From an uncultured Pelagibacteraceae bacterium (GTDB lineage: Bacteria > Pseudomonadota > Alphaproteobacteria > Pelagibacterales > Pelagibacteraceae), in the NCBI GenBank assembly GCA_902614905.1, contig CACMMN010000002.1, positions 45,001-109,000 of the forward strand: a DNA stretch of 64,000 nucleotides, given 5' to 3'. Positions 37,374 through 47,501 of this stretch are shown here, piece by piece. The notes below the pieces were generated by a model. That model saw nothing but the letters and a program-made list of their open reading frames with translations. It was not told where the DNA came from and did not search any database. How positions within the stretch are numbered: position 1 is the stretch's first letter; the number at the start of each line of letters is the position of its first letter. The translations under genes and the position numbers were made by a program.

Positions 37374-38589
37374 TAAGAAGATTGATCTCTCGCTGGACAG
37401 AACTTTTAATCTGTTAAATAAATTAGGTAATCCGCAAAATAAAATAAAAAATGTTGTAACTGTAGTTGGAACAAATTCTAAAGCTTCTATGGCTACTGCT
37501 TTAAGCACAATTTTGAAAGAAGCTGGATTCAAATATAACTTATATACCTCTCCTCATTTACAATCGTACACAGAAAGATTTGTTTTTAATAATAAAGAAA
37601 TAAGTGAAAACGATCTTGCAAATCTCTTAGAAGATGTCGATAAAATACTAGGAAATGATAATGCAACAGTTTTTGAAATATTAACAAGCGCCTTTATAAA
37701 ATATGCTGAAAATTTTAAAGATAATGTTAATATAATAGAGGCTGGTCTATTTCACAGATTTGATAGTACAAATGTATTTAAGCAAAATTTGCTTACCCTT
37801 TTAGGAGTAATCCACTTAGATCATTTAAATTGGTTGGATAATAAAACAATTGATGGTGTAATTTATGAAAAAACTAGTGCGTTACCAACATCTAACATAT
37901 TCATTAACAGTCAGATGAATTCAGAAATAAAAAAAAAAATTAAAAAATCTTTAATAGAAAACAAATCTAAAAAATATTTTTTTGGTGATGACTTTGATGT
38001 AGCAAAATCTGGAAACAGTTTTATTCATTATCAAGATGAATTAGGAGAAATAATACTACCTCAGCCTAATTTAATGGGTGATCACCAAATTTATAATATC
38101 AGCACTTCAATTGCAGCTGCTAGAAAAATATTTAATATATCTGATGCTAATATCAAAAATAGTATAAAAAAAATGAGATTAAAAGGACGTTTAGAAGAAA
38201 TAAAATCAGGTAAATTAAAAAATTTAATAGGTGAAAATAGGCTAGTAATAGACGGGGGACATAATATTAATTCAGCAATTTCAATTTCTAATTGGGTTAA
38301 GCAACAACACGAAAAAGTACATCTTATTTGCGGTATGATGAATGACAAACCTCATAAAGAGTTTGTTAAACAATTTGAGAATTCTGTAAATTCAATAACT
38401 CTTATAGATATTCCTAATCAAGAGGGTTCTATCTCTAAAGAAGAATTTAAAAAGAAACTTAATAACAAAAATATTCTTACTGCTGGTAGCATAGAAGAGT
38501 CTTTATTAATGAATAACAAAGATAAAAATTGCATTTTTTTATGTGCGGGGAGTCTTTATTTAGCTGGTGAAGTTTTAAATCTTAATTAA
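37321..38589 (+). CDS. folC: Folylpolyglutamate synthase / dihydrofolate synthase
   Basis: A 422-residue Mur-ligase-family enzyme that adds glutamate to dihydropteroate and folates. The ATP-binding loop, normally GTNGKGS, is GTNSKAS here. Lys is kept but both flanking glycines are changed. Later motifs fit Fol[21 protein letters not shown]. The start at 37321 lies inside accD but is supported because residues 15-40 ([21 protein letters not shown]) match the FolC N-terminus. It overlaps trxA tail to tail by 4 bp. Confidence 0.88.
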
Positions 38590-38696
38590 ATATTTTCTTT
38601 AATCCAAGATACAATATTAGATTTTGTGGTTGCTCCAACTTTAGTTGCTTTTAATTCTCCGTCTTTAAACAAAAGCATTGTTGGTATACCTCTAAC

Positions 38697-38745
38697 TCCT
38701 TTAAAAGACTAGTCCCCCTTTCTGCTGAAAGGGGGACTAGCCCCC
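38697..38745 (-). other. Palindromic insert 2 in trxA (46 nt, position uncertain by 3 nt)
   Basis: Between the Phe and Val codons of KFGVRG there are 49 nt instead of one Gly codon. The core 38709-38740 is a perfect 14-bp inverted repeat (arm CTAGTCCCCCTTTC) with a 4-nt AGCA loop. An alternative fold pairs GGGGG with CCCCC around CTAGT, putting the in-frame TAG in the loop. The segment is far more G+C-rich than its surroundings and ends in AAAGGA next to the Val codon. Confidence 0.85.
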
Positions 38746-38871
38746 GAATTTTGTTGGCTGGTTAGGATGTTCATCAATATTGTGTTTTGCAACAATCAAT
38801 TGATCTGACATCTCGTTAGATATTTCCTCTAAGATTGGTCCAATCTGTTTACAAGGACCACACCATTCTGC

Positions 38872-38899
38872 GCATTTTAATTGAAGCCCCTAAGGGCTA
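38872..38899 (-). other. Palindromic insert 1 in trxA (28 nt)
   Basis: It lies between the codons of W27 and A28 in the restored protein. On the coding strand it begins TAG and contains the hairpin AGCCC-TTAG-GGGCT, followed by an A/T-rich stretch that ends TGC just before the Ala codon. Its length is not a multiple of three, and the stop is immediate. Confidence 0.85.
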
Positions 38900-38901
38900 C
38901 C

Positions 38902-38942
38902 AGAAGTCCACTAGAACAGGCTTGCTGTTCTTAAGGACTTCT
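38902..38942 (-). repeat. 41-nt palindrome inside the trxA coding sequence
   Basis: Arms AGAAGTCC/GGACTTCT (8 bp) and AGAACAG/CTGTTCT (7 bp) are separated by a 3x3 internal loop, with a 5-nt apical loop. It encodes residues 14-26 (EVLKNSKPVLVDF), a genuine thioredoxin strand, and its 3' arm stops at the W27 codon beside insert 1. Its codons end mostly in C or G, unlike the rest of the gene. Confidence 0.8.
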
Positions 38943-39064
38943 CCATCAAAGTTCTCATCTGTTACATTTATTGTTGGCATAATTTTTTATAAAAAAATAT
39001 AAAGATTAAATCAATAATTAAATAAAAGTTATATCTATTTTTTAACAACCTAGAATTTAAATTT

Positions 39065-40258
39065 TTAATTCAAATCTTTCTTGTCCGGCTCTTCATTTCC
39101 TTTAAAACTTAATAATTGGTCTTCTATTTCATTTGTTTTAGGAATTGGATTTTTTGGATTAATACCTTGGTCTTTTAATTTTTCAATTCTTTGTTCCAGA
39201 CTACCCTGTCCTTGCCAAGTTCCCTTGATCACATTTTGAAGATTTTTTCCGTGAGCGTTAAAGCTTGTCATTGTTTTAATCAAGTGTGATTTTACTAATG
39301 AGTACTTATCCATTAAGTTAGTTGCTATATCCGTAATCGTCTTAACTCCTTTTATTTGTTTATCTTTATCTTGTATTGTCTGGATTATTGAAATAATTGC
39401 GAACAAATTTTTTGGACCGACTAGTAATATGTTTTTTTTGTAAGCATACTCATATAAATCTGGATAATGTTCTAGTGCCGCTAAATAACTTGCTTCGTGA
39501 CACATGTACATAACTACCTTAGGAAAAACGTTTTTCTTGACGTTTTTCATATAGTCTTTTTTAGACAAATTATCGATATGTTTTTTTACAGCTGCAGCAT
39601 GTTTCTTAAATTCTTCGTCTTTCTCGATATCAGTTTTTGCGTTAACAAATTTTTTCCAATTATCTAAAGATACTTTTGAGTCACAAACTATATAATTTTC
39701 ATCAGTCAAATTTATATATATATCAGGATTACTTGCTTCAATATTATCGTTATCTAAATTATAAACTTGTTCTTTTTTTTGTTTTGTGTAATCGATATTT
39801 TCTTTAAAACCGTGAATTTGTAAAGATTGTTCTAGAAATTTTTCTCCAAAGTTCCCTTGGTATTTTGCATTACCAGTTAGTTTATCAATGAAGTCTTGCT
39901 GATTCTGAATTTTTTTTTTACTATCTTGCATGTCAGAGGTTACTGTAGTCTTCCAAGACTCTACATTTTTTAATGTCGACAAAGTGATTTTTGAGCTTTC
40001 TCTTTCAGTTGTGAGTGTATCTTGTAAATTATTTTTTATTTTTTCAACACTTATATATTTTTCGTTTAAGAGTTTAATTTCATTTGTGTGGCTGATTTTA
40101 ATTTTTTCAATTTCGTGATCTTTTTCTTTTAATTCCTCATCTTTTGTCCTTAAGGCTTCGACTTCAGCAGAATTATCTTTTTTGTAAAAAAATTTTATAA
40201 ATATAACCCACAAAGCTGATGTTATAATTCCAGTAATAAGTATAATTAAAATATCCAT
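39065..40258 (-). CDS. rmuC: RmuC family protein
   Basis: A 397-residue protein with an N-terminal membrane helix (about residues 3-24), a long Glu/Lys-rich coiled coil (about 28-140) and a C-terminal RmuC domain. The domain has GNFGEKFLEQSL and the nuclease-like NPDIYI...IVCDSKVSLDNW (a PD-(D/E)xK arrangement). RmuC proteins limit recombination at inverted repeats in E. coli; the mechanism is not settled. It is the last gene of a leftward three-gene set, 12 bp after a small unknown. The 84 bp between it and trxA hold nothing I recognise. Confidence 0.85.
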   Translation of the reverse strand: MDILIILITGIITSALWVIFIKFFYKKDNSAEVEALRTKDEELKEKDHEIEKIKISHTNEIKLLNEKYISVEKIKNNLQDTLTTERESSKITLSTLKNVESWKTTVTSDMQDSKKKIQNQQDFIDKLTGNAKYQGNFGEKFLEQSLQIHGFKENIDYTKQKKEQVYNLDNDNIEASNPDIYINLTDENYIVCDSKVSLDNWKKFVNAKTDIEKDEEFKKHAAAVKKHIDNLSKKDYMKNVKKNVFPKVVMYMCHEASYLAALEHYPDLYEYAYKKNILLVGPKNLFAIISIIQTIQDKDKQIKGVKTITDIATNLMDKYSLVKSHLIKTMTSFNAHGKNLQNVIKGTWQGQGSLEQRIEKLKDQGINPKNPIPKTNEIEDQLLSFKGNEEPDKKDLN

Positions 40259-40270
40259 TATTTAGATCCT

Positions 40271-40663
40271 TTATTGTATTGTATGATTTTCTGCGTCTGA
40301 TTTCAACTCGGGAAAGTTTTCTTTTTGATATTTAGCTAAATTTTTAACCACTTCGTTAGATGATGCATCATTTGCTGATTTATATAAACCGTAAGAAACA
40401 TTTAAAATTGTTCTTTGTTTTAAATGGAATAAAAAATGATAGTAAGCATAATCAGCACTTAATTTTGACTCTATCACAAATCTATCGATTTCATCACAAA
40501 TTTTCCTAGCAAAAGCATTTGTTCTTTTTCTCTCTTGCTCTTCAACTTCTTCGGTACTTAAGATTTTTTCCTCATTTTCTAATGTTTTAAGATCTTTTCG
40601 AATTGGAACTATATTTGAGTGTTTTTTATTTTTACTTTTTGGACTTTTTTTAACTTTTGGCAT
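40271..40663 (-). CDS. Hypothetical protein
   Basis: A 130-residue protein with a strongly basic N-terminus (MPKVKKSPKSKNKKHSN), then an acidic helical section, then an aromatic-rich helix (SADYAYYHFLFHLKQR). I do not recognise a family. ATG 40663 is preferred to an upstream start at 40678 because GGGAGT lies at the right distance before it. It overlaps the preceding gene end slightly and is 12 bp from rmuC, so the three genes are probably co-transcribed. Confidence 0.6.
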   Translation of the reverse strand: MPKVKKSPKSKNKKHSNIVPIRKDLKTLENEEKILSTEEVEEQERKRTNAFARKICDEIDRFVIESKLSADYAYYHFLFHLKQRTILNVSYGLYKSANDASSNEVVKNLAKYQKENFPELKSDAENHTIQ

Positions 40664-40970
40664 TGTTTTTACTCCCATTGATTATTTGTTGATTATTATT
40701 GTATTTGTTAATTTCTTGCCTAATTATTTCAATCTCTAATAGGGTTTTATTATATTCAGAGTATTGTCTAATCTTAGATAAGAAATTTAGTGTGATGGTT
40801 GGTAAATTAATAGCTTTATAAATAAGGTAAATTATTAGATTATTTTTAAAAGTTTCTCTCTCTGCTTTTTCTTTAAGTTGTCTAAATCTAAAGAATATTT
40901 CTACATTTTTTATCCACTCTTGTCTGCTTGATAAACATTCTTTTAAAACATAATAATATTTATCTTTCAT
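40650..40970 (-). CDS. Hypothetical protein
   Basis: A 106-residue protein that is mostly helical and rich in Lys, Asn, Ile and Tyr, with a basic N-terminal half (WIKNVEIFFRFRQLKEKAERE) and a moderately hydrophobic centre (NLIIYLIYKAINLPTITL). No family recognised. An AAAGGGA ribosome site precedes ATG 40970. It is first of the leftward set, with its leader in the palindrome at 40983-41045. Confidence 0.6.
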   Translation of the reverse strand: MKDKYYYVLKECLSSRQEWIKNVEIFFRFRQLKEKAERETFKNNLIIYLIYKAINLPTITLNFLSKIRQYSEYNKTLLEIEIIRQEINKYNNNQQIINGSKNNAKS

Positions 40971-41160: not shown

Positions 41161-42333
41161 ATGCCTATAAATAACGATTATAACCGAAGTCTACTGTTAA
41201 CTTTACTTAAACTCTCTAAAGTAACGAAAAAACAATGTAGTTTTTTATTAAATAAACATGAAAATTCCCTAGATAGTTATATTTATAGATTTGGAGGACT
41301 AACGTTTCCCCCTAGTTTTGCTTATTTCTTTTTGAGTTCAATTGCTGAAACCTCGTTACCTCTTTACGAAGATAATAAAACACAACCTGACTTTAATATT
41401 GGAAAATCATCTTATGAACTAAAGATCAAAAAAGGGTCTCCTAGGATACAAAAATTTAATTATTTTAAACGTATAGACCATGTAGAGAAAAAAGAGTTTT
41501 TTAAAGTTTTAAAAAAATGTGAAAATCTAGATATTGAAAAGAAATTAATATTACCTTCTGTAGAGTTTCATTGTCTGCTTTTAATGAAATTATCAAATTC
41601 TGAATTTATTCATGACGAAGAAAATCTCCTTGAGGAATATATAAATCAAACAGTTCCAGAAGCTCAAGAATATTTAGAAGAATATTCTAATTTAGAAGGT
41701 GGACAAGATTTTTCTATTGCATTTAAAAATGCACATAAACATATTCAGGCACTTTCTTTGATCAGATCAATTAAAAATTTTTTTCCAATAGTTGAGAACT
41801 TAAGAAAAGAATTTATGCCAAATTTTGTGGCTCCCAACGAAACTTTTAAATTGCCTGTTTTAAATTCTAAAGAAAAAATATTATTCTCAAAAAGTTTTGT
41901 AAAAAGAAATTTAAATATAAAAAAATATAATGATTTAATATTAATGAATGTTGGTGAAAATAATATGGATGGAACAATTAATAAAGGTGACTTAGCTCTT
42001 ATAATTAAATTTGAAAATAAGCTTAAGCCTAAATTTAATAATGGGATATTTGCAATAAAACTAAGCGGTAAAATAGTTATACGAAGATTGCATTTTTCTG
42101 AATTTACGAAAAGAACATTGGTGCATATTATTTCTGATAACAAAAATTATGTTAGTGAACAGGTTTTGCTAGAGGATTTAGAGATTTTTGGTGAAGTTGT
42201 TTGGAAATGTAATAATTTTCAAAATATTCAATTTCTTAAACATGAAGGAAACGAACCAGACCTATTTTCTAATAAGGATATCGAAATCCCAGAATTTATA
42301 AAATCTAAAAAAATTGGAAAGGAAATTGCTTAA
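41161..42333 (+). CDS. LexA/CI-fold (S24-like) regulator without catalytic dyad
   Basis: A 390-residue protein. The C-terminal 130 residues fit the S24 fold shared by LexA and phage repressors: NVGENNMDGTINKGDLALI, then IFAIKLSGKIVIRRL. In active members the first motif has Ser before Met and the second has Lys before Arg-Leu. Here they are N268 and R308, so self-cleavage is unlikely. The N-terminal 60 residues are helical and could hold a helix-turn-helix, not clearly recognisable. It is the first gene of a rightward six-gene series, suggesting it controls it. Confidence 0.7.
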   Translation: MPINNDYNRSLLLTLLKLSKVTKKQCSFLLNKHENSLDSYIYRFGGLTFPPSFAYFFLSSIAETSLPLYEDNKTQPDFNIGKSSYELKIKKGSPRIQKFNYFKRIDHVEKKEFFKVLKKCENLDIEKKLILPSVEFHCLLLMKLSNSEFIHDEENLLEEYINQTVPEAQEYLEEYSNLEGGQDFSIAFKNAHKHIQALSLIRSIKNFFPIVENLRKEFMPNFVAPNETFKLPVLNSKEKILFSKSFVKRNLNIKKYNDLILMNVGENNMDGTINKGDLALIIKFENKLKPKFNNGIFAIKLSGKIVIRRLHFSEFTKRTLVHIISDNKNYVSEQVLLEDLEIFGEVVWKCNNFQNIQFLKHEGNEPDLFSNKDIEIPEFIKSKKIGKEIA

Positions 42334-43772
42334 TGAATTATATATTTTTCGATACTGAAACTAACTCAGGTAGATTGACAGCAGACATTTTGGATTTATC
42401 AGCCTTTTTCTGTGACAAAGATTTTAATGTTATTGAAGAATTTAATATAAAAGCAAGATTACGTAAAAGTAGAGTTTATGAGATTGATAGTTTTTTAGTA
42501 AACAATCTTGATCCATTTGATGTTGACAAATATGAAAATTCAAACTTCGATTTGACAAAAAAAACATATGAAAAATTTACATCATGGATAAATAAAGGAG
42601 ATGTGAGATTTATTGCTCATAACGGTTATTCTTTTGACTACATGCTATTCTCCCAACATTTATTTGCAAACTTGTTTACTTGGCCCTGGATTTTCGGATC
42701 TGGCAATGCAAAACAATTAGATTCATTGCCAATAATTCAAAACTTTGATTTCTATCAACCAAATATGATAGCAACAGAACTTAACGAGCGTTCAAATAAA
42801 ATTTTTAAGCTTGGTAGTCTCTGTAAAATAAATGGTTTTGATATTGGCAAAGATTTACATACTGCAAGAGGTGATGTGATAGGAACTAAAAATTTAATAA
42901 AATTAATCCAAAAAAAAAATCCTGAATTTTTCAATAAAAGTATAGGTTTTACTAATCAAAATGATGTTCTATCAACTATGAAAAACGTAAATTATTTTTG
43001 TCATCCTGAAACATTTTTTGGTCGTACTCGTCAATTTACATCAAGCTATATATGTGAGCACCCTGTATATAAAAGTTATCATTTAGTTGCAGATTTAAAA
43101 CATGATTGGGAAAAATTTTTATCCGAAAAATCTGACAACGTTTTGGATAAAGTGTTAAATTCTGCGCCAAAGAAATATCGGATTATTAAAGCCAAAAAAA
43201 ATCCTCTTATAATAGAAAAAAAATTTGCAACGAATTTTAATGATGAATATTCTAAGCTCGGGCATGAAATCTTACAAATTAGAGCCCAATTCATTAAGAA
43301 TAATAGAAAAGAAATATCAAACAGACTTTGTAATATCATAAATGATAAGTTTCAAGACAACAGCATAGATCAAACTCCATTAGAGCCTGAACAAATGATT
43401 TTTTCTTTAAACCCTTCACCAGACGAAAAAAATTTAATGAATCAATATGTTCTTGCAAATAATATTGATGAACAATTAAAGATTCACAAAAAATTTAATG
43501 GTCCGGTAAAACACTTATCGGAAATGGCTTTATTAGATAAATACGACAAAGACGGATTTTCCGATGCAGATTATAAAAGAGTTCGTTCTAATGTAAGCAA
43601 AAGATTGCTATCAACTAATAAAGAAGTTTTTCCAACTATTCCTGAAGCAATGGAAAGAATCGATACTTTAAGAGAAAAAAATAAAGATGATAAAGAAAAA
43701 ATTAAAATTCTAGAAAATATAAATGCCCATTTAGATGGAATTACTAAAGACCACGAGAGATACTTAAAATAA
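42333..43772 (+). CDS. Exonuclease I-like DEDD 3'-5' exonuclease
   Basis: A 479-residue protein. The N-terminal 190 residues form a DnaQ/ExoI-type nuclease domain: IFFDTETNSG (D7, E9), AHNGYSFDYMLF and HTARGDVIGTKNL. The middle (about 220-390) resembles the accessory part of exonuclease I, and a helical Lys/Glu-rich tail follows. E. coli ExoI (SbcB) is 475 residues, a good length match. It degrades single-stranded DNA in that family. ATG overlaps the preceding stop by 1 bp. Confidence 0.78.
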   Translation: MNYIFFDTETNSGRLTADILDLSAFFCDKDFNVIEEFNIKARLRKSRVYEIDSFLVNNLDPFDVDKYENSNFDLTKKTYEKFTSWINKGDVRFIAHNGYSFDYMLFSQHLFANLFTWPWIFGSGNAKQLDSLPIIQNFDFYQPNMIATELNERSNKIFKLGSLCKINGFDIGKDLHTARGDVIGTKNLIKLIQKKNPEFFNKSIGFTNQNDVLSTMKNVNYFCHPETFFGRTRQFTSSYICEHPVYKSYHLVADLKHDWEKFLSEKSDNVLDKVLNSAPKKYRIIKAKKNPLIIEKKFATNFNDEYSKLGHEILQIRAQFIKNNRKEISNRLCNIINDKFQDNSIDQTPLEPEQMIFSLNPSPDEKNLMNQYVLANNIDEQLKIHKKFNGPVKHLSEMALLDKYDKDGFSDADYKRVRSNVSKRLLSTNKEVFPTIPEAMERIDTLREKNKDDKEKIKILENINAHLDGITKDHERYLK

Positions 43773-43773
43773 T

Positions 43774-43992
43774 ATGGCAATTATTAAAGCTGATAAAATA
43801 GAAATTGAAATTCAAAAACAAACCATGGATAAGCCTGGATCAAATTACTTTATTTTAATTAAGTCTGAGAAAGCAAATAATAATTTTCTTAAATTATTTG
43901 CTTCAAATAAAAAACCCATAATCAAATTCACTGAGGATAATGGAAATTTTGTTAAAAATAATTTTTTTACAAACAATGAAATGGAATATTAA
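43774..43992 (+). CDS. Small hypothetical protein
   Basis: A 72-residue protein with no recognisable family; alternating charged and hydrophobic residues suggest a small beta-rich domain. It starts 2 bp after the exonuclease gene and overlaps the next start by 17 bp, so it is translated in series with them if real. Confidence 0.55.
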   Translation: MAIIKADKIEIEIQKQTMDKPGSNYFILIKSEKANNNFLKLFASNKKPIIKFTEDNGNFVKNNFFTNNEMEY

Positions 43993-44677
43993 TAACCAAT
44001 TTTCTTATCCTAAATCCACTAGATCTCTCTATAATGGTTCTAGGCATTATATGATTAACGGGGAAAGGTTGCCATCTGTAACAAATATACTTCAGCTTAC
44101 TAAAAGTTCTGAAGATAAAAAAGCTTTAGAAAAATGGAAAAAAGATAACAAAGATAGTGAAATGATACTAAGGGAATCGTCAAGTCGTGGAACTTTAATG
44201 CACAGTTATTTATCTGAAACATTAATGGGTAGAATGAATGGTGAACTTATAGATGAAGTGAACTTACCGAAAAAAATGGCGGAAACTATAATATCGAATG
44301 GATTGAATGATTATGTAAAAGAGGTTTACGCGAGTGAGGAGTGTGTTTACTCTTTAAAATATAAATACGCGGGCACTATGGATGCATTAATCAGCACTCA
44401 TAAAGATAAACTACAAATTTGTGATTTTAAGCAAAAGAACTCTCCTGCTAAAAGAGAATATAATTCAATTAGAGATTATTTCACACAAATTTTGTTATAT
44501 GCAACTGCCCATAACGAAATTCATGGGACAAATATCCAATCTGGCATTATTTTAATGTGTACACCAAATTTAATTTTTCAAAAATTTGAAATAGAAGGTC
44601 AAGAGTTTGTTGATCTTCAAAAAGAAGCTTTAAAGAGAGTTGAAAAATATCACAAAATAATTAATCAAAATATATGA
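43976..44677 (+). CDS. PD-(D/E)XK nuclease, Cas4/MGME1-like exonuclease
   Basis: A 233-residue protein with the motif order of RecB-like single-strand exonucleases: GTLMHSYLSETLMGR (a conserved His), then YAGTMDALIS (Asp), then LQICDFKQKN (Asp-x-Lys), then YFTQILLYATAHNEIHG (Gln/Tyr motif). This fits the MGME1/phage exonuclease branch. Cas4 cysteines are not seen, so no iron-sulfur cluster is expected. ATG 43976 is preferred to an in-frame ATG at 43940, which would add a hydrophobic stretch. It overlaps its neighbours by 17 and 4 bp. Confidence 0.78.
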   Translation: MKWNINNQFSYPKSTRSLYNGSRHYMINGERLPSVTNILQLTKSSEDKKALEKWKKDNKDSEMILRESSSRGTLMHSYLSETLMGRMNGELIDEVNLPKKMAETIISNGLNDYVKEVYASEECVYSLKYKYAGTMDALISTHKDKLQICDFKQKNSPAKREYNSIRDYFTQILLYATAHNEIHGTNIQSGIILMCTPNLIFQKFEIEGQEFVDLQKEALKRVEKYHKIINQNI

Positions 44678-45276
44678 AAGATTATCAAAGGCGAACTTTT
44701 TTAAAAGAGACTGAGGGAAAAATAAAATATAAAACTTATACTAAAGATTCTTTTTTTTATAACTCAGATAAAAAGCTCTGGGGTTGGAAACAAGAGTCAA
44801 AAGGCATCATTCATTATGCAAGAAATATAGAGGAATTAAAAAAAATCAAAAAAAAAGAATTTATAGGTAAAGGAAATTATGATCATTCAGTAACACATGC
44901 TTGGCAAAATTCAGAATATATGGGGACAGATGAATTTGCAAATAAATGTGGAATTAAAAATAGAGAAGGTAAACCGTGTACAAAAAATTATATCAGTTTG
45001 CTCCTAAAAAGAGGTGTTAGTCCACTTAATGAATACGATGAAAGTTTAAGAGGTGCGGGTATCCATAAGGCTACAACAAGAAAAAAGAGTGGGCAGAAAT
45101 TTTTAAATTGTCTTAAAAAATCAAATATTGAATATAAAAATGTATTTCCAAATGAAATTTATAAAAGTAAATTTAGTAAAAATAACTATATTATGAAACA
45201 GAAAATATGGGTATTTAAAAACGCAACTGAAAATAATTTGAGAATTTTTAAAAAACTTTGGTATGAAAAAAATTAA
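44674..45276 (+). CDS. Hypothetical basic protein
   Basis: A 200-residue, strongly basic protein. It is not recognised. The centre (MGTDEFANKCGIKNREGKPCTKNYISLLLKRG) could be a helix-turn-helix-like module, and RKKSGQKFLNCLKKSN follows. The charge and the neighbours suggest nucleic acid binding. It overlaps both neighbours (4 and 14 bp). Confidence 0.6.
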   Translation: MKDYQRRTFLKETEGKIKYKTYTKDSFFYNSDKKLWGWKQESKGIIHYARNIEELKKIKKKEFIGKGNYDHSVTHAWQNSEYMGTDEFANKCGIKNREGKPCTKNYISLLLKRGVSPLNEYDESLRGAGIHKATTRKKSGQKFLNCLKKSNIEYKNVFPNEIYKSKFSKNNYIMKQKIWVFKNATENNLRIFKKLWYEKN

Positions 45277-45772
45277 AAGAAAGATAATAAATAAAATCAG
45301 AGAGGTTACTGATTATGATTATGTAGATGATCCTAGAAGAAAAAAAGCTCCAAAAAATGCAAAATTCAAAATAGTTTTTTATAAACCTAAGCCTGGTGAA
45401 GACTCCAATATACCAATTAAATTTCAAGGAGTTCAATATTACACTAACAAATCTGAGGCAGATTTAGCTTTAAAATATAGGTTAGAACTAAAAGAGAAAC
45501 TAAAACTAAAGAAATCTAAGGATATGATTGGTAATAATAGAAATCCTAATCTCAAAAATGTTGGCGTAAGGTTTGGTAAAGATAACGGATATACAATTAA
45601 TCAAAAAAAAGAATTTAATAAAAAAGTTAAAATTGCAAAAAAATATCTTAAATCAGGTCATACTAAAATGGAAACTCAAAGAATTATTAATAAAAAATTC
45701 AAATTGAATAGAGATGAAAATTCCGGTACTGGTAGATATGTAAGAGTGGCATCTGATTTACTTGATAAGTAA
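45263..45772 (+). CDS. Hypothetical basic protein
   Basis: A 169-residue Lys-rich protein. The middle VQYYTNKSEADLALKYRLELK and a late KMETQRIINKKFKLN helix pair are the only features; the latter could be a helix-turn-helix. It is the last gene of the rightward series and overlaps convergent hisG by 15 bp, so the accessory block ends abruptly at a core gene. Confidence 0.6.
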   Translation: MKKIKRKIINKIREVTDYDYVDDPRRKKAPKNAKFKIVFYKPKPGEDSNIPIKFQGVQYYTNKSEADLALKYRLELKEKLKLKKSKDMIGNNRNPNLKNVGVRFGKDNGYTINQKKEFNKKVKIAKKYLKSGHTKMETQRIINKKFKLNRDENSGTGRYVRVASDLLDK

Positions 45773-46447
45773 ATTAATCAGTTTCTTTACACCTTTTTTC
45801 TTCGAATTTTTTCTAGAACTAAAAATACAAGCTTGAGATTTTAATATTTCTCCATCAGATAGTATTTTAAGGTTATTTTGTTTTAGCGTCGTCATTGTTT
45901 GAGTTATGTCAGATATAAGCTGAGCAGTGTTCATGGCACACATCAGTTCAGTACTGCCTAATGATTTAACTATTGTAAAGTTGGTTACCCCTCTTGAATA
46001 CAGGAATTCTCTAGTAAGATTTGGATATTTAGTACCAATTTTTAATAATGATTTGTTCTTTTTTTTATATTCATCAGCAACTTCATCTAGATCTAGTGTT
46101 GTAAATAAATCTATAAATTCATTTCTACAGGCCAATACCAGTGATGCGTGACCAAAATTAAGTTCCTTTTCTAATTTAATATTTTTTTGAATATTAATCT
46201 CAGATTCTTTTAATAAATCAAACCCACTGATCCCAATATCTAAATTTCCAATTGATAATTGCTCTAAAATTTCTCTTGCATGTAAAAATAGAATTGAGAT
46301 ATCAGGTCTACCTTTAACTTTGCCAATTAATTCTCTTTCACCTCTATCAAAGAAAATTTTAAGCTTCTTTTTAACTAAAATTTTTTCAGATTGTTCTTTC
46401 AATCTACCCTTAGATACAATTCCTATGTTTATTTTTTCTTTACTCAT
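45758..46447 (-). CDS. hisG: ATP phosphoribosyltransferase, catalytic subunit (short form)
   Basis: A 229-residue HisG, catalysing the first step of histidine synthesis. It begins MSKEKINIGIVSKGRL, and the phosphate loop and SLGSTELMCAMNTAQLISDITQT stretch are typical. The short form lacks the C-terminal regulatory domain and needs HisZ, encoded immediately upstream. ATG 46447 is chosen because a longer frame to 46636 lies wholly inside hisZ and has no HisG similarity. Confidence 0.93.
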   Translation of the reverse strand: MSKEKINIGIVSKGRLKEQSEKILVKKKLKIFFDRGERELIGKVKGRPDISILFLHAREILEQLSIGNLDIGISGFDLLKESEINIQKNIKLEKELNFGHASLVLACRNEFIDLFTTLDLDEVADEYKKKNKSLLKIGTKYPNLTREFLYSRGVTNFTIVKSLGSTELMCAMNTAQLISDITQTMTTLKQNNLKILSDGEILKSQACIFSSRKNSKKKGVKKLINLLIK

Positions 46448-47501
46448 AAACTCCAAGATTAATTGCACAACCAACTGCAGGTATTTTACGTAAACCAAGA
46501 TTTTTTGATGTAAGATCATTAAATCTTCCACCTGATATAAAGGTCTTTTGTTTATTTTTAATTTTAATATCAATTGAAAATATAAATGAGCTGTAATACT
46601 CAATTTCTCTTCCTCCATTGTCTGTGGAAAATTCAAACTTAAAATTTTTTTGTTTAAAATTTGTTATTGGAAAGAATTCTTTGCCAACCGAAATATTCAA
46701 GTTATATTTTTTATAAAATTTGTTTAATATTTTTGGTGCATTTTTAAGAGAACATTTAATCTTTAAAAATTCTTTAATAATTTTACAGCTTTGTTTTCCT
46801 GTTTTAGTAACTCTAGGATCGTTAATTTTCTTCTCATATCTATCAAGTATTTCTTTATAACTTCTTCCAGCAATTAACTTATTTGGGTTTTCTTTTTTCA
46901 TTTTAAGATAAGTTTTATGATCTCCTGCGACGACAAATGAATCTATATCTAAGTTGCCTTCAAGTCTCTTAAGTAATTCTGAAAAATAATTACTATTCCA
47001 GTAAAATTTAATTAATCTTTTTTTCCATCTTTCAGGAATTGAAAGTTTTTGGATCAATAATTCAAATAATTTAAAGTTACCTATTTTAACTTTTGCACTT
47101 TTTATCCCAGCTTTTTTTAGAATTGTTATTGATGTATCAATGATTTCTTTGTCATCCTTTTTTTCATTTTGAGATGAGAAAATCTCTAATCCTAATTGTC
47201 TAATTACAACTTTATTTTTATTATAGGATTTTCTAAATGCACTTCCTGTATAAAAAACCTTTTCTTTAGAATTTTTTTTGCTTTGCGCATATCTTAAAAT
47301 ACTTGAGATCGATAGATCGGGTATTAAGGTTAGTTCTTGTGCATCAGAGTTATAAAAAGAAAACAAATATTTTCTAAAATTTTCACCTGATCTTTGTAAT
47401 ATAAATTTAGATTCTAAAACTGGGTCTAGTTCTATTTTCTTAAAACCTTTTGTTTTCAAAGTTTTAATTATTCTATTGTAATTTTGAGATTTCATTAACA
47501 A
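46440..47501 (-). CDS. hisZ: ATP phosphoribosyltransferase regulatory subunit
   Basis: A 353-residue paralogue of the histidyl-tRNA synthetase catalytic core without aminoacylation function. It forms a hetero-octamer with short HisG. Class II-like motifs remain (LTLIPDLSISSILRYAQ, VFYTGSAFRKSY, FISGGRFNDL). The true start may be the ATG two codons later (47495). It overlaps hisG by 8 bp and hisS by 29 bp. Confidence 0.88.
   Translation of the reverse strand: MLMKSQNYNRIIKTLKTKGFKKIELDPVLESKFILQRSGENFRKYLFSFYNSDAQELTLIPDLSISSILRYAQSKKNSKEKVFYTGSAFRKSYNKNKVVIRQLGLEIFSSQNEKKDDKEIIDTSITILKKAGIKSAKVKIGNFKLFELLIQKLSIPERWKKRLIKFYWNSNYFSELLKRLEGNLDIDSFVVAGDHKTYLKMKKENPNKLIAGRSYKEILDRYEKKINDPRVTKTGKQSCKIIKEFLKIKCSLKNAPKILNKFYKKYNLNISVGKEFFPITNFKQKNFKFEFSTDNGGREIEYYSSFIFSIDIKIKNKQKTFISGGRFNDLTSKNLGLRKIPAVGCAINLGVYE

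Follow-up and report, generated by a model that had tools for sequence, protein, structure and literature searches.

A divergent nuclease locus beside trxA in Pelagibacteraceae, at a chromosomal slot that holds addAB elsewhere in the Alphaproteobacteria

SAR11 bacteria recombine frequently, and a 2025 study (PMC12374537) reports representatives that lack the genes for RecBCD and, in part, RecF. How DNA ends are processed in these organisms is the question addressed here. The same study suggests that RecOR may start recombination, and its main text does not contain the word 'exonuclease'. The DNA analysed (the window) is a 64,000-nucleotide stretch of a contig from an uncultured Pelagibacteraceae bacterium. 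It contains a six-gene run at 41161-45772 that encodes an S24-like protein, an ExoI-like protein, sm72, nuc, b200 and b169, with rmuC, u135 and u106 (39065-40970) on the opposite strand. The 3' part of the run, 43774-45772, comprises the genes named here for their 72-, 200- and 169-residue products (sm72, b200 and b169) and the nuclease gene, nuc (Table 1). Among open-licence papers, none could be recognised from its title or abstract as an account of this locus.

Table 1. Features of the trxA-hisG interval, in window coordinates
Feature	Coordinates	Strand	Description	Profile match
trxA	38586..38980	-	reading frame broken into three; marker of the slot	
rmuC	39065..40258	-		PF02646, E 3e-50
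u135	40271..40678	-	no assigned function; relatives in 8 other loci read	
u106	40650..40970	-	no assigned function; recurs near several different systems (14 other loci read)	
S24-like gene	41161..42333	+	S24-like regulator	PF00717, E 1.5e-6
exoI	42333..43772	+	ExoI-like DEDD exonuclease (predicted), divergent version	PF08411, E 3.5e-8, over cut-off
sm72	43774..43992	+	72-aa putative accessory protein	
nuc	43976..44677 (longest ORF from 43940)	+	MGME1/phage-type PD-(D/E)XK nuclease (predicted)	
b200	44674..45276	+	basic protein, predicted DNA-binding	
b169	45263..45772	+	basic protein, predicted DNA-binding; domain also in viral proteins	
Likely exchange boundary	45197		inside the 3' end of b200; DNA similarity to L086, L087 and L049 resumes	
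hisG	45758..46450 (longest ORF to 46636)	-	flank of the variable interval	

The preliminary description had placed the 72-, 200- and 169-residue genes in close series with the nuclease. The open reading frame list bears this out (72, 245, 200 and 169 residues for sm72, nuc, b200 and b169, all on the forward strand), with one correction, the start of nuc. As the shortest open reading frames of most nuc relatives open at or near 'MKWN', comparison of sequences indicates that nuc probably starts at the ATG at 43976, from which it overlaps sm72 by 17 nt, compared with 53 nt from the longest-frame start. Gaps within the run range from -16 to +3 nt. The order exoI-sm72-nuc-b200-b169-hisG is kept in three further Pelagibacteraceae contigs (L085, L086 and L087); L085 and L087 also carry the S24-like gene and rmuC-u135-u106, and L086 starts inside exoI, with nothing upstream visible. 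Pairwise pN/pS was 0.26-0.35 for sm72, 0.08-0.23 for nuc, 0.21-0.49 for b200 and 0.27-0.46 for b169, values that are rough because most pairs approach saturation at synonymous sites. The three small genes are real and conserved, and are under purifying selection.

Their tight overlap had been taken as a sign of a shared complex. Among the co-directional neighbour pairs outside the operon in the window, however, 20 of 38 overlap and 30 of the 38 are no more than 10 nt apart (longest-start frames were used, so overlap is somewhat inflated). Overlap is therefore the base rate here and was rejected as an indicator of a complex; b200/b169 and sm72 also occur without nuc. The two larger proteins are very basic, as had been noted: the computed pI is 9.8 for b200 (45 Lys and Arg residues against 21 Asp and Glu) and 10.2 for b169 (47 against 19), and that of sm72 is 8.9. 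None of the three belongs to a named family as far as curated Pfam and NCBIfam cut-offs go, in line with the initial reading; PHROGs gave nothing better than E 0.07 and PADLOC gave no match. Homology to ordinary housekeeping proteins and a lack of protein-level conservation were both looked for, and neither was found for the small genes; nuc, however, belongs to a near-core locus.

The nuc product matched the phage exonuclease family phrog_298 in a profile search (E 1.1e-31) and human MGME1 (PDB 8xa9) at E 3.4e-4, and scored just under the Pfam PDDEXK_1 cut-off (21.1 bits against 22). It matched 220 phage records, including Pelagibacter phage HTVC027P. His88, Asp148, Asp162, Lys164, Gln183 and Tyr187 are identical in 41 rows of a 42-row alignment that counts the window twice, the remaining row being gapped; the assignment of catalytic residues presumes the general PD-(D/E)XK motif. 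Judged from its sequence, nuc is a predicted MGME1/phage-type PD-(D/E)XK exonuclease with its presumed active-site residues intact. The resemblance to MGME1 and the phrog_298 exonucleases extends over most of the protein, but nuc differs in its setting, a bacterial chromosome with rmuC and an ExoI-like gene alongside. The earlier label 'Cas4/MGME1-like' thus holds for MGME1 and fails for Cas4: the protein has three cysteines and no CxxC pair, where the iron-sulphur centre of Cas4 needs four cysteines, and its best PADLOC model, Cas4b, reached E 0.0011. Matches to nuc were found in 166 of 201 genomes of the genus (its own included; a weak match in G038, E 7.9e-5, was not taken as a member) and in 27 of the 29 with completeness of 90% or more and contamination of 5% or less, which makes the gene near-core. 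The two exceptions among the 29, G022 and G178, gave no match.

The exoI product exceeds the cut-off for the C-terminal domain PF08411, and its alignment contains DEDD-type motifs, judged by the general ExoI motifs; against the SbcB equivalog NF008746 it scored 62 bits, where the cut-off is 260. In the S24-like protein, the Ser and Lys of the LexA-type protease pair, located by the general family motif, appear in the alignment to be replaced by Asn and Arg. The exoI and RmuC proteins also score against the PADLOC reverse-transcriptase-associated models RTasSbcB (E 3.1e-27) and RTasRmuC (E 6e-38). The reverse transcriptase that a DRT system requires was not found by Pfam among the nine window proteins scanned.

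The chromosomal position of these genes is informative. Among the same-genus loci read, the usual order in most is hisS-hisZ-hisG, rmuC, nuc, exoI, trxA, folC, accD; L009-L032 were picked because nuc had been found there and L059-L078 mostly for large gaps or a missing or divergent nuc, and class counts are accordingly not frequencies. In the window, nuc, exoI and rmuC likewise adjoin trxA-folC-accD. Among the matches listed (150 for each gene), 120 genomes had hisG and folC on one contig, and the interval between them was 3-4 kb in 97 and above 5 kb in 17. Elsewhere in the Alphaproteobacteria the neighbour of trxA is addAB: trxA lies within the 1.5-kb flanks of addA in 27 of the 30 best-scoring loci. 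Of 57 genomes of the class, the window's own among them, 41 scored over the AddA cut-off, compared with none of 61 genomes of the order, and AddB was found in none of the same 61 at E<=0.001; these absences, like those of RecJ, are weakened because many genomes are incomplete (the window's own is 82% complete). Weak AddA matches occurred in 49 of the 61 and, among the matches listed, fell mostly in frames of 656-755 residues, the size expected for UvrD. In G019 the weak match to the nuclease end of AddA was nuc itself.

In the sister family, rmuC-exoI adjoins trxA in all five loci of sufficient length, one of which (L165) has exoI broken into two frames; nuc was undetected in those five. RecJ was present in 14 of 16 sister-family genomes. 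Of 25 genomes of the genus, the window's own among them, 4 had RecJ, two of these with scores below the cut-off; among near-complete genomes it was one of four. Two of the 4, G012 and G016, carry both RecJ and nuc. Because nuc is missing from the sister-family slot and RecJ is mostly present, rmuC-exoI is older there than nuc. The set thus shares with AddAB the slot beside trxA, and with AddAB and RecBCD a RecB-type PD-(D/E)XK nuclease fold and a presumed role in end processing. AddAB and RecBCD are helicase-nucleases, whereas the window set consists of separate small nucleases with no helicase, and AddA and AddB were not found in the 61 genomes of the order.

The trxA gene of the window occupies three frames owing to two short insertions relative to the intact gene of L009. 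The first, of 28 nt, begins with TAG immediately behind the TGG codon that precedes the active site and holds a small hairpin; the second, of about 50 nt, contains a perfect 14-bp inverted repeat. The trxA of L087 (3968-4370) shares the first insertion, its second site being occupied by a different hairpin insertion, and that of L085 (3982-4380) has one hairpin insertion flanked by GGT on both sides. Translational-bypass elements occur in T4 gene 60 and as the byps of yeast mitochondria. The trxA insertions recall such elements, a pseudogene or an error being the alternatives.

The content of the slot varies. All five nuc-less loci read have a different PD-(D/E)XK-type protein close to rmuC-exoI: Cas4-like proteins of 258-273 residues in L171, L172, L064 and L066, and in L057 only a 600-residue end fragment of an RNase H/helicase family. 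Fuller members of that family show a Cas4-type end, over the Pfam cut-off in L172 and under it in L171 and L066. CxxC pairs are present in the Cas4-like relatives of L171, L172, L090, L091 and L099. Within the genus the exoI tree splits into two deep groups, the window falling in one (the exoI and nuc trees are midpoint-rooted, with no support values shown). Compared with L009, the window's folC is 86% identical and its exoI 25%; compared with L025, hisS is 89% identical and exoI 26%. With flanks so close and exoI so distant, the locus seems to be swapped en bloc between its flanks, and the window carries a deeply divergent version. Against L086 the DNA is 92.9% identical over 9,726 nt from 45197 onward and 81% identical over 43532-44946; the encoded b200 proteins are 57% identical and the b169 proteins 95%. 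Replacement flexible genomic islands (PMC4033161) similarly hold differing gene sets between shared flanks, which fits exchange by homologous recombination; those islands encode exposed surface structures, whereas DNA-processing and defence-like genes are found here.

The hisG-trxA interval is also a hotspot, for example in L049 and L068-L077, where MORC/Z1/DUF4420 and NurA-HerA-AAA15 sets lie next to hisG. A third set beside hisG includes a 646-724-residue protein; the one scanned had no Pfam or PADLOC match. A conserved protein of 529-530 residues lies between rmuC and u106 in L057 (3536-5125), L063 (4558-6150) and L171 (8165-9757), loci of the window's exoI group without nuc; the L057 copy had no Pfam or PADLOC match.

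The sm72 gene follows exoI in the window, in L085-L087, in L059 and in L171, where nuc was not found. In all six NurA-HerA islands (L071-L076), an sm72 relative lies one or two small open reading frames downstream of HerA; HerA and NurA were called by Pfam in L076 and by BLASTP to L076 in the other five, and HerA is split in L071. The window protein resembles its counterparts in the islands modestly (phmmer E 6.5e-6 to 9.6e-4). The window set shares an sm72-type gene with these islands but has neither HerA nor NurA. Viral sequences had been suggested as a place to search, and sm72 relatives were found in 16 viral contigs. Among the contigs listed the gene comes just after an HTH-type gene, and most of those listed look, on a reading other than by profiles, as if they carry PD-(D/E)XK exonuclease-like and Erf/Rad52-type annealing genes. 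Most likely, sm72 is a small modulator tied to ExoI- or HerA-type machines.

A scan of one genome per species by pattern search, which gives a lower bound, found b200 in at least 15 contigs, all of Pelagibacteraceae. At E<=0.001, matches to b200 occurred in 7 and to b169 in 8 of 201 genomes, own and weak matches included; a weak b200 match in G122 (E 4.2e-4, in a 493-residue frame) was not counted as a member. With the window there are 16 b200 loci (the contigs of L049-L053 reappear as several of L085-L099), and in 11 of these b200 lies at the hisG edge. The adjoining cargo there is exoI-nuc in four, MORC/Z1/DUF4420 in two, DISARM-like in two, and a type I-like restriction system, a Z1 protein and an unclassified set in one each; 'DISARM-like', which presumes the general DISARM architecture, refers to helicase, MZB and C5-methylase domains, and L094 and L097 received their labels solely through resemblance to those proteins. 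The other five comprise three near Cas4-like nucleases with u106 and b169 (L090, L091 and L099), one near an RNase H/helicase protein and one near a 699-residue LRR protein. Between L092 and L094, b200-b169-hisG is 98.9% identical in DNA over 1,684 nt, and beyond a further 401-nt stretch the cargo cannot be aligned at the DNA level. Because this pair shares the two genes with different cargo, and because identity between the window and L086 shifts at 45197, b200 and b169 are most likely a DNA-binding edge module of this and other nuclease or defence loci, and not fixed subunits of nuc.

Structure prediction, which had been proposed as a check, yielded models of b200 and b169 and weak fold matches. 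The AF2 model of b200 (mean pLDDT 72.5) has three strands and a helix (residues 27-62), HTH-like helices and an alpha-beta-beta-alpha end; that of b169 has a mean pLDDT of 80.1. Foldseek returned no match at E<=0.001 for either model, with KH domains and BLM RQC among the low rows for b200, and saposin and PadR among those for b169. The two models were compared with arm-type/AP2-like and HTH DNA-binding proteins. VIA, which re-ranks Foldseek rows, so that absence from its list is little informative, aligned b200 22-69 weakly, in its best row, with the N-terminal domain of lambda integrase (Z 3.0, rmsd 2.8, 47 residues), and b169 111-169 with TrpR (Z 5.1, rmsd 1.8, 47 residues) and saposin A (Z 4.9), below the safe level. 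PDB sequence searches with alignments of sm72, b200 and b169 gave only E>=0.42. From the charge, the weak fold matches and the viral HTH neighbour we infer that b200 and b169 bind DNA.

The viral search was positive for b169 as well, whose domain was found in 11 viral contigs by alignment search; a single-sequence search of the viral contigs gave no match. The proteins read are of 531-868 residues, and HTH_24 exceeded its cut-off in one. The b169-domain proteins are carried by L100-L104, L107, L108 and L110, and in several contigs they lie between putative terminase large subunit and portal genes. For b200 nothing credible emerged: a 36% match within an ATPase-like protein in L048 is attributed to chance, because the alignment search of viral contigs gave none. 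Among 50,697 phage records, sm72, b200 and b169 had no match at E<=0.1.

The explanation that best fits these observations is that the segment forms the 3' part of a divergent form of the DNA-end-processing locus found in Pelagibacterales beside trxA-folC-accD, the addAB slot in other alphaproteobacteria, and that the nuclease set stands in for AddAB; with the roles proposed below, we regard this as evenly balanced. RmuC, an ExoI-like 3'-5' exonuclease and one PD-(D/E)XK nuclease (MGME1-like here, Cas4-like in some relatives) would trim or degrade broken and foreign linear DNA without AddAB. The ExoI-like enzyme would trim 3' ends and nuc would cut single-stranded ends, with RmuC assisting and a cellular helicase such as UvrD opening the ends; MGME1 prefers single-stranded DNA and cuts in both directions (PMC6237815). 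The S24-like protein, its protease pair seemingly lost, might regulate without self-cleavage, sm72 might tune ExoI, and b200 and b169 might bind DNA for this or neighbouring systems. Counted against this explanation are the lack of a helicase in the set, the incomplete genomes, the sister family with RecJ and without nuc, the genomes with both RecJ and nuc, and the weak fold matches of b200 and b169.

Alternatively, the locus could serve mainly in anti-phage defence, the window version (the S24-like gene, u135, u106 and the small genes) being one of several types exchanged at the hotspot. Restriction- and defence-like systems in the hisG-trxA interval or near b200/b169, the scores of exoI and RmuC against reverse-transcriptase-associated models, and the exchange of versions as blocks all favour such a role; we nevertheless consider it rather unlikely, given a near-core nuc (27/29), the reach of rmuC-exoI beside trxA into the sister family and the lack of a reverse transcriptase among the nine window proteins scanned. 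That b200, b169 and sm72 are passengers, selfish or regulatory remnants of phages or islands that linkage preserves at a site prone to recombination and that play no part in end processing, seems improbable. Their viral relatives (16 contigs for sm72, 11 for the b169 domain) and patchy presence (7/201 and 8/201 for b200 and b169) would suit passengers, but pN/pS is below 0.5 in every pair and the genes recur near nuclease and DNA-processing genes. A prophage was rejected for the locus as a whole on account of its chromosomal slot and flanks and the near-core status of nuc, though nuc and sm72 have phage or viral relatives.

The dedicated complex of nuc with the three small proteins suggested at the outset is the most doubtful of these readings. 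The same order and tight spacing recur in three other contigs, and b169, b200 and u106 form a tight series with a Cas4-like nuclease in L090, L091 and L099. Against a complex, overlap is the base rate in the window, the exchange boundary falls inside b200, b200/b169 occur without adjoining nuc in L089, L092, L094, L095 and others, sm72 occurs without nuc in L171, and most of the genus has nuc without the small genes. The gene arrangement first described is confirmed and its interpretation partly supported; the finding at the level of the slot is the most useful part.

The stand-in for AddAB can be extended, more tentatively, to the proposal that SAR11 swapped AddAB at its own slot for a set of small exonucleases without a helicase (RmuC, an ExoI-like enzyme and, interchangeably, an MGME1- or Cas4-like nuclease), whose deeply divergent, block-exchanged versions and fast-evolving DNA-binding accessories may be favoured by phage anti-nucleases. 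The present analysis places concrete genes, with a testable role, at the slot of the missing enzyme, and the three small genes among accessory proteins common to nuclease and defence-like loci. If the proposal is true, the set would be the end-resection and linear-DNA-degradation machinery so far missing from some of the ocean's most abundant bacteria.
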